Below, in pieces: positions 45,536 to 50,611 of a DNA stretch of 64,000 nt (its first letter is position 1; each line of letters starts with the position of its first letter). This stretch comes from Sphingopyxis sp. 113P3 (GTDB lineage: Bacteria > Pseudomonadota > Alphaproteobacteria > Sphingomonadales > Sphingomonadaceae). Under the pieces are notes generated by a model. It ran no database searches and was not told where the DNA came from. It worked only from the letters and a program-made list of their open reading frames with translations. The stretch covers positions 3,257,501 through 3,321,500 of the forward strand of contig NZ_CP009452.1 of assembly GCF_001278035.1 (NCBI RefSeq), written 5' to 3'. The translations under genes were made by a program, and so were the position numbers.

Positions 45536-45579
45536 TTGCCACAGGCGCGCTACAAATGTAGCTAGGCTACAAATGTAGC
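45536..45579 (+). promoter_or_regulatory. BlaI-type promoter/operator with two identical sites
   Basis: Two identical 14-mers, GCTACAAATGTAGC, lie at 45549-45562 and 45566-45579, separated by TAG. Each has the TACA-N2-TGTA core known from BlaI/MecI operators. A candidate promoter, TTGCCA (45536-45541) with TAGCTA 17 bp later (45559-45564), runs straight through the first site, so repressor binding would block RNA polymerase. The region directly precedes the BlaI-like gene. Confidence 0.75.
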
Positions 45580-45595
45580 GCAAAAGGTGATTCGC

Positions 45596-45973
45596 ATGCT
45601 GTCCAGTTTGCCCCCGCGGGAACGCGAAATCGTCGATATCCTTTATGAAAATGGTCCCTCGACCGTGCCGGAAATCGCCGCGGCGCTGAGCGACGCCCTG
45701 TCCGGCTCGGCAATCCGCGCAATGCTGAAGCGGCTCGAGGGCAAAGGCTTTGTCGCGCGCGAGCCTTCCGACCGCGGCTTCCTCTATGCTCCGAGCGTCG
45801 AGGGCAAGGCCGCGAGCAAGTCGGCGCTGAGCCAGGTCGTGCGCGTCTTCTTCAATGGCTCGCCAACGAGCGCCGCTGCGGCGCTGCTCGGCATGCAGGA
45901 TGAGATGAGCGCGTCCGAACTCGACGAGCTTGAAAAGCTGATCGCCGAGGCGCGCGACGCGAGGAGGACATGA
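45596..45973 (+). CDS. BlaI/MecI-family transcriptional repressor
   Basis: The 125-residue protein starts LPPREREIVDILYENGPSTV, the winged-helix HTH of the BlaI/MecI/CopY family (about 5-70). A C-terminal dimerisation part (about 80-120) follows. Such repressors bind TACA/TGTA operators and are inactivated by cleavage or release after signalling from an M56 protease. AAGG at good spacing favours the ATG at 45596 over the GTG at 45587. Two operator copies precede it, and its stop overlaps the start of the M56 gene (ATGA), giving the classical repressor-protease pair. Confidence 0.92.
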   Translation: MLSSLPPREREIVDILYENGPSTVPEIAAALSDALSGSAIRAMLKRLEGKGFVAREPSDRGFLYAPSVEGKAASKSALSQVVRVFFNGSPTSAAAALLGMQDEMSASELDELEKLIAEARDARRT

Positions 45974-47643
45974 TGATCACCGCAACCCTGCTCGCCGGGA
46001 TCGCCTGGAAATCGGCGCTGATCGCCGGCCTTACCCTGCTGCTCCTTCGCCTCGCGCGCACCCGATCGGCCGCAGAGCGCTCCTTGATTGCGCATGTCGG
46101 CCTCGCAGCCCTCCTCGCGCTCCCGGTCGCAGCCTTGCTGCTTCCGATCTGGGCGCCGCTGCCTGCCGCCTGGTTTGCCGAGGCCGCCCCCGCGGCGGCA
46201 AGCGCGCCAGCGGCAGGCTCGGTCGCTGCCGATCTCGCTTCCGTCGCGGTCTCGGTCTCGGGCACGGCCCAGTCCGTCGCCGCGGAGGCCCCGGCGTCGT
46301 GGCTCGCTTCATTGCCCCCGCTCGCCGATCTTGCGCTCCTTTTCTATTCGCTGCCCCTCGCCCTGCTTTTTGCGACGATGCTCGTCGCCGTCGTGCGGCT
46401 GTTCGCCATGCGCGGGCGTGCTGACGTGCTCGTCCAGCCCTCGTGGCTCTCGGCGCTTGCCGAAGCTCAGCGGCGCATGGGCTTCAAGCACGGCACCGCG
46501 CTCCTGGTCAGTGAGGAGCTGCGTTCGCCGATCAGCTGGGGCGTGCTGCGTCCGACGATCGTCCTCAGCCCCAAGGCGGTCGAAGCGGTCAGCGAAGCCG
46601 AAGCGATCATCGCGCACGAGCTTGCTCACGTGGCTCGGCTCGACTGGGCGAAGCTGCTCTCCGCGCGGCTCGCCTGCGCAATATTCTGGTTCAACCCGCT
46701 CGTCTGGATGCTGGCGCGCGAGAGCCACCAGTTGCGCGAGGAAGCCGCGGACGATGCAGTTCTTCTCGCCGACATTGATGGCCCCGACTATGCAACCCTG
46801 CTCGTCGGCGCGGCGCGCCACGACAACAAGGGTACGCTGATCGCAGCGCACGGCGTGGCGCCGGGCAAGAACAGCCTCAAGCGCCGGATTACCCGCGTCC
46901 TCGATACGCGGGCGAGACGCGGCCCGCCCAGCGCAAGCTGGTTTGCAATGACGCTTGCCTTTCTCGCCGGTGTCACCGTCCCTCTCGCCGCCTTCTCGGC
47001 AACGGGCGCGCGCTTTGCGGACGAAAGGGAAAACGCCCTCGCCGCACCTGTGCCTGCCGCGACGCCCATGGCGGCGGCGAGCGCGCCAGGGAAAGAGGCG
47101 CCCGCCACCGCTCAGGCCGGACTGCCGGTCGACCAGCTCGTCAGCATGAAGGCGATGGGGGTCACTCCCGACGATGTGCGCGGAATGCACGGCAACAAGG
47201 GCCTCGACCCCGACGACGTGATCGCGGCCAAGGCCGTGGGCGCCACCCCTGCCTATCTCGGCCGGATGCGCGCCCTGTTTCCGGGCGCAGACACAGATGA
47301 TCTGATCGGTGCGGCAGCCCTCGGAATCGACCCCGGCTACGCCCGCGAGGTGCAGTCCTATTTCCCCGGCCTTGACCTTGACGACCTCGCCGGCATGCGG
47401 GCGGTCGGCGTCACCGGAGACTTCATAAGCGAGACACGCAAGTCGGGCGTGCGCATAGCGGACCCCGACGAGGCGATCGAGCTTCGGGTCACCCGCGGGG
47501 TCAATATCTCGCAGGTGGTCTCGCAGACCCTCGGCACCGCGACGAGTGCAGCCTCGACAAATGCCCGCAGCAAGGGCCCCGGATCGCGCACCGAAACCCC
47601 TGAGCCACCTGCCCCCCCGCAGCCGCCCGCAACGAACGACTGA
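45970..47643 (+). CDS. M56 (BlaR1-like) membrane metallopeptidase with C-terminal repeat domain
   Basis: The 557-residue protein has two N-terminal hydrophobic helices, more helices near residues 115-145, and the M56 zinc motif HELAHVARLDW (HELAH 216-220) with EEAADDAVL following. A further helix at about 320-340 precedes a periplasmic tail. That tail lacks a penicillin-binding domain. Instead it has Ala/Pro linkers and four repeats of about 28 residues starting at 387, 412, 440 and 468, with the pattern (L)D-x-D-D-(L/V)-x3-(K/R)A-(V/L)-G-(V/I)-T-P-x-Y. It should cleave or inactivate the BlaI-like repressor on sensing a signal, probably through the repeats. Confidence 0.88.
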   Translation: MMITATLLAGIAWKSALIAGLTLLLLRLARTRSAAERSLIAHVGLAALLALPVAALLLPIWAPLPAAWFAEAAPAAASAPAAGSVAADLASVAVSVSGTAQSVAAEAPASWLASLPPLADLALLFYSLPLALLFATMLVAVVRLFAMRGRADVLVQPSWLSALAEAQRRMGFKHGTALLVSEELRSPISWGVLRPTIVLSPKAVEAVSEAEAIIAHELAHVARLDWAKLLSARLACAIFWFNPLVWMLARESHQLREEAADDAVLLADIDGPDYATLLVGAARHDNKGTLIAAHGVAPGKNSLKRRITRVLDTRARRGPPSASWFAMTLAFLAGVTVPLAAFSATGARFADERENALAAPVPAATPMAAASAPGKEAPATAQAGLPVDQLVSMKAMGVTPDDVRGMHGNKGLDPDDVIAAKAVGATPAYLGRMRALFPGADTDDLIGAAALGIDPGYAREVQSYFPGLDLDDLAGMRAVGVTGDFISETRKSGVRIADPDEAIELRVTRGVNISQVVSQTLGTATSAASTNARSKGPGSRTETPEPPAPPQPPATND

Positions 47644-47651
47644 CGCCGGCC

Positions 47652-47667
47652 GCCCGGCCCGCCGGGC
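47652..47667 (+). other. GC-rich hairpin between M56 gene and repeat-protein gene
   Basis: GCCCGGC-CC-GCCGGGC forms a strong stem 10 bp behind the M56 stop. No T-run follows. It sits in the largest gap (119 bp) of this operon and could attenuate transcription into the downstream genes. Confidence 0.35.
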
Positions 47668-47762
47668 GCTGACGAATAGCCCCAACCCCAAGAACGAAAA
47701 ACGCCGCATCAGCGGCGAGCGACGGTGCTCGCCCGCGATCCGCGGCACGAAGGAGACATGCC

Positions 47763-48515
47763 ATGAAAGCCCTGATCGTTACCGCGAGTCTCGCGATGCT
47801 CTCCGCGCTGGCCTCGACGGCTCCGCTGCAGTCCACAGGCGCACCCCCCGTGATGACCGACATCCGCTGGGACATGCTCCCCCCCGAGGGCAGCCGCGAG
47901 ATCGACAATCCGCGCCTGCACATCCGTTCGGATCGATCGAGCAGCACCCTCGCGCTGGATGGATCGCGCCCCGAAACTGCGGCGGCACAGCGGGCGCTTG
48001 CGGGCGCCGCCGGACCGGTCGCCTTCGCTGTGACGCACGAGGCGGGCACGCTCGCCTGCGACGGCCGGCTGTCGCGCCGATACGAAGGCGGGGGCGGCTG
48101 CCGGTTCGCCGCCGCCCCCGGCTTTGAACAGGCGCTCGCTAAGCACGGGATCAGGCCGAGCGATCGAAGTGACCTGCTCGCAATGCTTCTCGCCAATGCC
48201 ACGATCGAGCTTGCCGACGGGCTGTCGCGTGCCGGGCTTCCCCCACAGGATGCGGACGAGCTGGTCGCCGCCGCAGCGCTGCGCGTCACACCCGCCTATG
48301 TCCGCGATCTGCGCGCGGCGCCAATGAAGCTCACCTCGCTCGACGACGTCTTCGCCTGCCGCGCTCTTGGCATAAACGCCGCCTACGTCCGTGAGCTGGC
48401 GGGCGCGGGCTATACCGATCTCTCGCTTGAGGATGTTATTTCGATGAAGGCGCTCGGCGTCACCGGCGACTATGCCCGGCGGATGAATGCAGCCGCGGCG
48501 GAGGTGAGCCAGTGA
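47763..48515 (+). CDS. Exported protein with BlaR-type repeats (function unknown)
   Basis: The 250-residue protein has a signal peptide (MKALIVTASLAMLSALAS, about 20 residues). A region without known domains follows, containing two cysteines in LACDG and GGGCRF (a likely disulfide). Three copies of the repeat found in the M56 tail begin at residues 159, 190 and 220 (for example LSLEDVISMKALGVTGDYARRM). AAGGAG precedes the ATG, and its stop overlaps the TonB-receptor start (GTGA). Shared repeats with the M56 protein suggest that the two interact or bind the same ligand in the periplasm. No function is known to me. Confidence 0.75.
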   Translation: MKALIVTASLAMLSALASTAPLQSTGAPPVMTDIRWDMLPPEGSREIDNPRLHIRSDRSSSTLALDGSRPETAAAQRALAGAAGPVAFAVTHEAGTLACDGRLSRRYEGGGGCRFAAAPGFEQALAKHGIRPSDRSDLLAMLLANATIELADGLSRAGLPPQDADELVAAAALRVTPAYVRDLRAAPMKLTSLDDVFACRALGINAAYVRELAGAGYTDLSLEDVISMKALGVTGDYARRMNAAAAEVSQ

Positions 48516-50611
48516 GAATCGCCGCCAGCCTGCTCACCATAGCTGCCCTTCTTTTTGTCCAACCCGCGCGCGCGCAAGACGCTCCGGCGAGCGGCGATGC
48601 GCCGCTGCCTGAAGCCGCAAGGAGCGCAACGCTCGCGAAAGCGCTTGCGGGGAAAGTCTATACTCCCGCTGACTTTGTCCGATATGCGCCGCGCAACGCC
48701 CTTGACATGCTGAACCAGGTTCCCGGTTTTGCGATACGCGAGACCGAGACGGTGCGGGGACTGGGACAGGCGACAGGGAACGTGCTGTTCAACGGCGCGC
48801 GGCCCTCGACCAAATCGGACACGATCGCCACCCAGTTGACGCGCATCCCCGCCGCCAACGTCGAGCGGATCGAGATTGTCGACGGCGCGAGCCTCGATCT
48901 TCCGGGCCTTTCAGGGCAGGTTGCGAACATCGTCTTTCGCGCCGACAGCTTCTCCGGGCAATTCTCCTGGAAACCCGAATTCCGGGCGCATTACACCGAC
49001 CCCCTGTTCACCCGGGCCGATATTTCGGTGCGGGGGCGCAAGGGTGATCTTGAATATGAGCTTGGCATCAACAACGACACGAGTTCGCGCAGCGGTGCGG
49101 GTGGCGGCACCGTCATCACCGACGGCACGGGCGCGGTCCTCGAGCACCGCAAGGACATCTGGAATACCCATTATGACACGCCCAAGCTCTCCGCCAAGCT
49201 GACCTGGGACCCCGCGGGCGACAGCATCGCAAATCTTGGAGCGCATGTTCAGCGCCGCTGGTATCGCTATGACGAAGCCGGCGCCTGGAGAGCGCCCGGC
49301 GGGCTCGATCGCCTCCGGACCGTGCGCGAGACCGAGACGACCTGGAATTACGAGCTTGGCGGGGATTATCAGTTCGGCCTCGGCGCCGGAAAGCTCAAGC
49401 TGATCGGTCTTCGCCGGTTCAGCCACGAGCCGGTGTCCCAGGAGGTGGTCCTACGCCCCACCGACGGCTCGCCCGCGAGCGGCGATCGCTTCACCCAGAC
49501 AGGCGACGTCGGCGAAACAATCGCCCGGGGAGAATATGACTGGAAGATGCTCGGCGGCGACTGGCAGCTATCGGGCGAGGCGGCCTTCAACACACTGCGG
49601 AGCGTTGCACGGCTCTACACGCTTGACCCGGCCAACGACGATTTCGCCGAACTGCCCTTCCCGCAAGGCACGGGCGGGGTGAGCGAAGACCGCTATGAGG
49701 CTCTCCTCAGCTTCGGCCGCAAACTCACGGACAAGCTATCCTTCCAGCTCGTCGCGGGGGCCGAGCACTCGACCTTGACCCAGGACGGTGCAAACGGGCT
49801 CGAACGCAGCTTCTTCCGGCCCAAGGGATCGCTGACCCTTGCCTGGATCCCCACCGCGGGTCTCGATCTGTCGCTCAAGGCACAGCGACAGATCGAGCAG
49901 CTCGATTTCTACGACTTTCTGGCGCGCGCTTTCCTCAATGACGACAACAACAACGTCGGAAACGCCGACCTGCGCCCGCAGCAGAACTGGCGCTTCGAGT
50001 TCGAGGCGAACAAATCGCTCGGCCGGTGGGGGTCGACCAAGCTTCAACTCGTCTATGTCGATGCGGAGGATTTCGTCGATGTCGTTCCGGTCGACGGGGG
50101 CGAGTCGGTCGGCAATATCGCCAAGGCATGGGCGGCAGCGGTCGCGTGGTCGGCGACGATCAATCTCGACCCTGCAGGACTGAAGGGCGTGAAGATCGAC
50201 CTGAGCGTCGACATCGAGAAATCGGGGCTGCGCGACCCCTTTACCGGCGAGACGCGCCAATGGAGCGGGTTTCAGGATCGCTCGGCGGAGTTCTCGCTTC
50301 GCCATGACATTCCCGCGAGCAACTGGGCCTGGGGTGCCACGGCCGTCTACGGTCGCTACCAGCCCAATTACCGGCGCAATGAGGTCAACCGCACGTGGGA
50401 GGGCCCGGTGTTCGCTTCGCTGTTCGTCGAGAACAAGGATGTCATGGGAATGACCGTGCGCGCCGAGCTCTCCAATGCGATCGACGCGCGGTCCCGGCGC
50501 GAGAGGACGGTATACGAAGGTCTGCGGGGGGAAAGTCCGATTGCCTTCCACGAAAGCCGCGACCGACTGATCGGGCCGATCTTCAAATTCTCGGTGCGCG
50601 GGAAATTCTAG
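48512..50611 (+). CDS. TonB-dependent outer-membrane receptor
   Basis: The 699-residue protein begins at a GTG overlapping the previous stop. It has a signal peptide (MRIAASLLTIAALLFVQPARA, about 21 residues), a plug domain (about 45-150, DMLNQVPGFAIRETETVRGLG and VERIEIVDGAS), and a long beta-barrel ending in the outer-membrane C-terminal pattern KFSVRGKF with terminal Phe. Barrel strands show the alternating aromatic pattern throughout. It transports an unknown ligand, possibly iron chelate, carbohydrate or peptide. It is the only receptor in this operon and its expression is likely controlled by the BlaI-M56 pair. Confidence 0.92.
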   Translation: MRIAASLLTIAALLFVQPARAQDAPASGDAPLPEAARSATLAKALAGKVYTPADFVRYAPRNALDMLNQVPGFAIRETETVRGLGQATGNVLFNGARPSTKSDTIATQLTRIPAANVERIEIVDGASLDLPGLSGQVANIVFRADSFSGQFSWKPEFRAHYTDPLFTRADISVRGRKGDLEYELGINNDTSSRSGAGGGTVITDGTGAVLEHRKDIWNTHYDTPKLSAKLTWDPAGDSIANLGAHVQRRWYRYDEAGAWRAPGGLDRLRTVRETETTWNYELGGDYQFGLGAGKLKLIGLRRFSHEPVSQEVVLRPTDGSPASGDRFTQTGDVGETIARGEYDWKMLGGDWQLSGEAAFNTLRSVARLYTLDPANDDFAELPFPQGTGGVSEDRYEALLSFGRKLTDKLSFQLVAGAEHSTLTQDGANGLERSFFRPKGSLTLAWIPTAGLDLSLKAQRQIEQLDFYDFLARAFLNDDNNNVGNADLRPQQNWRFEFEANKSLGRWGSTKLQLVYVDAEDFVDVVPVDGGESVGNIAKAWAAAVAWSATINLDPAGLKGVKIDLSVDIEKSGLRDPFTGETRQWSGFQDRSAEFSLRHDIPASNWAWGATAVYGRYQPNYRRNEVNRTWEGPVFASLFVENKDVMGMTVRAELSNAIDARSRRERTVYEGLRGESPIAFHESRDRLIGPIFKFSVRGKF

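Follow-up and report, generated by a model that had tools for sequence, protein, structure and literature searches.

A window of 64 000 nucleotides (nt) from the Sphingopyxis sp. 113P3 chromosome (NZ_CP009452.1; C1:3257501-3321500 of a genome of 4.66 Mb) carries a set of four genes on its + strand at 45.54–50.61 kb, between an aldehyde dehydrogenase gene on one side and an MreB-like gene on the other. These genes encode a BlaI repressor, an M56 protease, an exported repeat protein (here called REP) and a TonB-dependent receptor (TBDT); positions below are those of the window. The window proteins were scanned against Pfam and NCBIfam (E-values up to 0.1, which is also the scope of the negative domain results for these four proteins). 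The scan confirmed the four genes in tandem that an earlier reading of the sequence alone had recognized: PF03965, PF05569 and PF07715 were found where the sequence-only reading had placed the repressor, the protease and the receptor.

The BlaI-family repressor (45596..45973, + strand) has 125 amino acids (a.a.) from its ATG, or 128 a.a. if the GTG at 45587 is used, and matches PF03965 (Penicillinase_R) with 76.5 bits (E-value 2.7e-21; cut-off 22.6 bits). The listed GTG start probably belongs to the ribosome-binding site AAGGTGATT (45584..45592, + strand), judging from relatives: several of them retain the counterpart of the ATG at 45596 but have that of the GTG at 45587 in another reading frame. 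CopY copper repressors carry a C-terminal cysteine metal motif; a cysteine count finds no cysteine at all in the window BlaI, so this motif is lacking.

The M56 membrane metalloprotease (45970..47643, + strand; 557 a.a.) matches PF05569 with 102 bits (E-value 4.3e-29), and its HELAH motif lies at residues 216–220, with H216, E217 and H220 invariant across 25 aligned rows. Its structural model (mean predicted local distance difference test, pLDDT, of 73) finds BlaR1 cryo-EM chains as best Foldseek matches (E-value 2.7e-5). Four long helices (5–28, 34–57, 118–150 and 322–341) are placed in the model as membrane helices would be, and the protease falls between the last two, which is the order of BlaR1/MecR1 (protease between helices 3 and 4, sensor after 4). 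Past the fourth helix the model has a low-confidence linker and then about four helical repeats (model helices 387–508). This C-terminal region (residues 384–508; 47119..47493, + strand) is predicted to be periplasmic and is our candidate sensor; its repeats are shared with REP (37% identity, E-value 4.6e-11). No penicillin-binding domain was found in M56 by Pfam or NCBIfam: Pfam gives the protease alone, and the NCBIfam BlaR1 match ends at residue 313. With no such domain in any of the four genes, the view of this pair as a BlaI–M56 circuit without a penicillin-binding sensor is supported. At G056:C1:64529-66248 and in L201 (Sphingopyxis sp. PET50) the M56 match is spread over two frames, a possible frameshift or assembly error.

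REP (47763..48515, + strand; 250 a.a.) starts with a signal-like N-terminus, followed by a beta domain at residues 30–117 and helical repeats at 131–249. Its model (pLDDT 90.5) shows four repeats of 29 a.a., of the same kind as those of M56; the repeats noticed earlier in the exported protein are thus present, but are not restricted to it. Two cysteines of the beta domain are conserved in at least 90% of the alignment rows. REP matches no Pfam or NCBIfam family. When the REP profile was compared with the PDB, chains with transcription activator-like (TAL) repeats matched by sequence (best E-value 4.2e-16), in the repeat region only; no Pfam TAL match was found among 26 members and no Foldseek match at E-values up to 0.001. 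TAL-effector repeats are 33–35 a.a. long, whereas those of REP have 29 a.a. and REP is exported, and we read the likeness as a probable generic similarity of helical hairpins. REP-like proteins also occur outside Sphingomonadaceae: some carry names from Thermoanaerobaculia, and Balneolaceae gave a short match to the repeats. Two metagenomic proteins, P0055 and P0064, fuse an M56 domain to REP: P0055 matches the window REP over residues 15–241 (BLASTP, 7e-22), and P0064 was matched by hhalign of alignment A2 over 288 columns (probability 100, E-value 2e-49). That a complete REP can be joined to the protease in one chain suggests a joint action of the free-standing REP and the M56 sensor.

The fourth gene (48512..50611, + strand) encodes a TBDT of 699 a.a. 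with a GTG start that overlaps the REP stop codon. Its sole Pfam match is the Plug domain (PF07715, 34.5 bits, E-value 3.1e-8), and the barrel is not matched by Pfam; the protein is 41–88% identical in 15 relatives, and its full length is conserved to the C-terminal Phe in 16 rows. It thus has the plug and the conserved, barrel-length chain of a TBDT. An STN signalling domain was not found on it by Pfam.

The 4-nt overlaps read earlier at two of the junctions, BlaI/M56 (ATGA at 45970) and REP/TBDT (GTGA at 48512), are real, and they recur in 15 and 18, respectively, of 20 Sphingopyxis loci. M56 and REP are separated by 119 nt (105–142 nt across the 20 loci), and aligned leaders show an intercistronic stem-loop GGCGAGC/GCTCGCC in this gap (47714..47733, + strand). 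Its core GCGAGC...GCTCG is found in 19 of the 20 Sphingopyxis leaders aligned (L050 has GCTTG instead; the leaders of L044 and L059 were left out of this alignment), and most leaders from other genera fold differently. Covariation cannot test the stem-loop because its arms are nearly invariant in Sphingopyxis. Speculatively, it might determine how much regulator mRNA there is relative to output mRNA.

BlaI/MecI operators are TACA/TGTA dyads at the repressor's own promoter. Dyads of this type are found upstream of blaI in the window and in all 20 Sphingopyxis loci, and they give substance to the 'upstream sites' of the sequence-only reading: two identical, perfect palindromes of 14 base pairs (bp), GCTACAAATGTAGC, at 45549..45562 (operator 1) and 45566..45579 (operator 2), 17 bp apart start to start. 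Among 31 regions with two exact sites the spacing is 16 bp in 19, 17 bp in eight, 18 bp in three and 21 bp in one. CTACANNTGTAG has, with at most one mismatch, two sites in the whole window, both upstream of blaI (0.16 expected; four out of 100 shuffles reach two sites); in the rest of the genome it occurs at one further site. A site ACTACAAATGTAGT at L006:1501-1512 (G000:C1:633168) lies 53 nt upstream of a gene for an S41-family peptidase and is at chance level on its own. A −35-like element, TTGCCA (45536..45541, + strand), lies 7 nt upstream of operator 1 and may mark the promoter: CTTGC closely precedes the first palindrome in 31 out of 32 upstream regions (the window, the 20 Sphingopyxis loci and 11 loci of other genera), L146 having CTTGA, and it is kept in L145, where the first palindrome is decayed. 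A repressor on the palindromes would therefore overlap the promoter.

The earlier reading joined the four genes into one circuit, a proposal to be given up if relatives did not keep the gene order; the comparison did not refute it and supports a conserved four-gene unit. This M56 (at E-values up to 1e-30) was found in 48 out of 60 Sphingopyxis genomes, and in all 20 of the loci fetched from these the four genes stand in order behind two exact palindromes. The 13-mer GCTACAAATGTAG is present in the same 48 genomes and in none of the 12 without this M56 (its backward control has three forward matches and one reverse match over all 60 genomes); the genomes are related, and these are not 60 independent tests. 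Among 13 loci from other genera of the order Sphingomonadales, BlaI and M56 were found in 11, REP in 10 and the receptor next in line in eight. The other two loci (L151 and L152, both in genome G319) are REP-like genes alone, with no BlaI or M56 match within the 15 kb fetched, and the perfect 14-mer is absent from that genome.

A larger collection of 79 loci was picked by M56 similarity and describes this M56 clade only; many of its members repeat genomes of the other sets. Among the 42 loci that we classed as Sphingopyxis-like, BlaI is found in 40, REP in 42, the TBDT in 40 and two operators in 40, with all misses at contig ends. The other 37 loci (titled Sphingomonas, Sphingobium, Novosphingobium, Tsuneonella, Altererythrobacter, Parvularcula, Asticcacaulis and others) have BlaI in 37, REP in 28, an adjacent TBDT (a frame within 250 nt) in 24 and two or more operators in 32. 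In an uncultured Sphingomonas (L219:9772-13847) BlaI, M56 and REP are followed by a glycoside-hydrolase-16 gene (by Pfam) and a large TonB-receptor-like frame of another type; a similar frame points to the same arrangement in another uncultured Sphingomonas locus (L220:9948-13941).

As a control, 69 genomes of the family were searched with the PF05569 profile (47 with a match) and 20 M56 loci were fetched, one of them the window locus as positive control. BlaI stands beside M56 in all 19 others, and none of the 19 has a match to the TBDT or REP profiles (no general TonB-receptor model was run). As far as tested, the link to the receptor thus belongs to the repeat-bearing M56 clade and not to M56 proteases in general. 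The genome has one other BlaI–M56 pair (C1:485739-486943; L005:7725-9781), whose M56 is without repeats and whose 150 nt upstream hold one TACATTTGTA with different flanks; no REP or TBDT was seen by eye in the frames beside it, where no profile was run. Several of the family's BlaI–M56 pairs of this kind that were fetched lie near a NadA-like (quinolinate synthase) frame.

The operator also occurs away from the operon. In seven of the 48 Sphingopyxis genomes (loci L091–L097, in G005, G020, G046, G025, G007, G018 and G008) a further copy precedes a gene for the same small exported protein (seven out of seven), which is of the Lumazine_bd_2 type (PF12893, 2.2e-25; one scanned), and on the far side six of the seven have an Arr-like rifampin ADP-ribosyltransferase frame (PF12120, one scanned). 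The Lumazine_bd_2-type protein is found in 15 of the 60 Sphingopyxis genomes, the window genome not among them; upstream of these 15 genes there is an exact site in seven, a decayed pair in one, other DNA without a site in four and a contig end in two, and one is unread.

In the other genera, the perfect 14-mer is present in 11 out of 13 genomes, with 39 forward matches against seven for the backward control (about 0.08 per 2.5 Mb expected by base composition). All 17 sites outside BlaI–M56–REP operons were fetched. Two of them precede TBDTs of the same family (1001 bits in G336 and 1000 bits in G314), with the CTTGC box and palindromes 16 bp apart; the operons of these two genomes are without this TBDT, which sits elsewhere in the genome. 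Gene and operator stay together wherever the gene lies, which argues more strongly than anything else here for the receptor as an output, as the sequence-only reading had it. Seven sites precede genes for exported DUF2807 (head GIN) proteins that start 18–26 nt after the site (L281, L283, L284, L285, L289, L292 and L297). Two lie at sister BlaI–M56 pairs, one (a paired site) at the gene of an S15-like hydrolase and one at that of an FmdA-like protein. The gene at L291 encodes an exported protein that we take to resemble a hydrolase (not Pfam-scanned), that at L294 has no Pfam match, and the sites at L286 and L290, which abut a start codon, are probably due to chance. In L259:3407-7019 (G189), a sister BlaI–M56 pair without repeats has a single operator-like site and is followed by a YkuD L,D-transpeptidase gene.

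Sequence comparison shows which parts are present, the paired operator, and that this operator strictly accompanies the operon within the genus; it also places the receptor in the regulon and brings out the repeats common to M56 and REP and the fusions of the two. On this comparative evidence a BlaI/M56 circuit is well supported. The general mechanism of such pairs is described in PMC7593790. DNA binding, cleavage, topology, a co-sensor role of REP and induction are what we infer for the present set. BlaI dimers would occupy both tandem palindromes, which lie directly behind the −35-like element and overlap the presumed promoter, and would keep the four-gene operon at a low level. M56 would span the inner membrane, its zinc-protease domain facing the cytoplasm and its C-terminal helical repeats the periplasm. 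This repeat domain and REP would together read an extracytoplasmic signal and thereby activate the protease, which would cut BlaI and switch the operon on, giving more sensor, REP and outer-membrane receptor. That the four genes form such a derepression circuit for an envelope module, with the repeat solenoid and REP as its sensor, is in our view somewhat more probable than otherwise.

Several observations weigh against this account. Of the 37 non-Sphingopyxis-like loci, nine have no REP (a contig end cuts two of these) and 13 no adjacent TBDT (four are cut likewise), so that neither is indispensable; in L226 a TBDT frame begins 296 nt downstream, outside the 250-nt rule, and L227 has a related TBDT (341 bits) upstream on the opposite strand. 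Two of the 24 adjacent TBDTs (L225 and L232) are of a more distant subfamily (about 295 bits), and five of the 37 loci have fewer than two exact operators. The G336 operon is not free of receptor-like genes: some 2.7 kb past REP, behind a gene of 889 a.a., lie two distant relatives of the TBDT (264 and 234 bits). In G260 the operon has no TBDT and the genome no other exact operator. The fusions hold only the later part of the 296 positions of PF05569 (198–293 in P0055 and 102–267 in P0064), and may therefore be partial genes. The −10 element is unconvincing, and a consensus scan called no promoter at the start of the operon.

As to the signal, we consider a ligand of the receptor and envelope damage about equally likely. 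Substrate-induced uptake, in which the ligand would be bound in the periplasm by REP or the M56 repeats and induce its own transporter by positive feedback, agrees with a receptor that belongs to the regulon whether its gene lies in cis or in trans, and with the frequent REP/TBDT overlap, which suggests coupled translation. The four conserved genes, however, include no inner-membrane transporter or catabolic gene, and most other operator-linked genes of relatives are unlike uptake genes; as a full account it remains doubtful. Equally doubtful is a circuit that answers wall or outer-membrane stress, including antimicrobials, with the receptor as one of several envelope outputs. The perfect operators before exported DUF2807 proteins at seven of the 17 extra sites point in this direction, as does the L,D-transpeptidase gene behind the sister pair of L259; but we know of no function for DUF2807, in the window genome two DUF2807 genes exceed the family cut-off, neither with an operator site, and the third operator of seven Sphingopyxis genomes serves a Lumazine_bd_2-type protein instead.

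The repressor and the protease domain are of the BlaI/BlaR1 kind, and M56 might still answer beta-lactams, directly or via wall fragments; this we regard as very unlikely, given the lack of a penicillin-binding domain and of a beta-lactamase among the four genes. It is also improbable, if a little less so, that BlaI regulates only itself and M56, with REP and the receptor under their own promoter after the gap. The conserved length of that gap and its stem-loop would fit such a promoter, but the paired operator is retained at both receptor genes that lie outside the operon, and no + strand promoter was called in the gap (a weak test, which misses the presumed operon promoter too).

Most of what is known of BlaI/M56 pairs comes from beta-lactam resistance. 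As in BlaI–BlaR1 and MecI–MecR1 of Staphylococcus, the repressor belongs to the BlaI/MecI family, its promoter region carries TACA/TGTA dyads, and the adjacent gene encodes a membrane protein whose M56 protease domain has the HExxH motif. In contrast to these systems, the C-terminus of the window M56 holds helical repeats in place of the penicillin-binding sensor, and the outputs are a TonB receptor and REP instead of beta-lactamase or PBP2a. In FecIR-type signalling a TonB receptor is under the control of a transmembrane pair of sigma factor and anti-sigma factor; here too a TonB receptor would be controlled by a transmembrane signalling pair, but the receptor has no STN domain by Pfam, and a repressor and a protease replace the two factors. 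We put forward, tentatively and with rather less than even confidence, a proteolytic counterpart of FecIR. In this view one family of TonB receptors would be controlled across Sphingomonadaceae by a BlaI/M56 switch of its own with a split sensor (the M56 solenoid and the secreted REP); in some genera the regulon would also take in DUF2807 and other exported proteins, and the signal would be one not known for any BlaI/M56 pair.

The 'new sensing type' of the sequence-only reading is not borne out as worded: according to the accessible parts of PMC7896320 and PMC13421787, the PetR–PetP pair of cyanobacteria, of the BlaI/BlaR1 family, already answers copper, a signal other than a beta-lactam. Its regulon is very small (four proteins; PMC7896320) and includes plastocyanin and cytochrome c6, and those parts of the two papers mention no TonB receptor or REP. 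With such a pair known, the present system is a variant and not a new kind, and a literature search found no published description of the four-gene system. What it adds is a link, seen in gene order, operator and regulon alike, between a BlaI/M56 pair and an outer-membrane receptor together with an undescribed exported partner. The REP family and the 29-a.a.-repeat sensor module on M56 proteases, both uncharacterized, now form part of a signalling hypothesis that can be tested directly, in bacteria that can be cultured.

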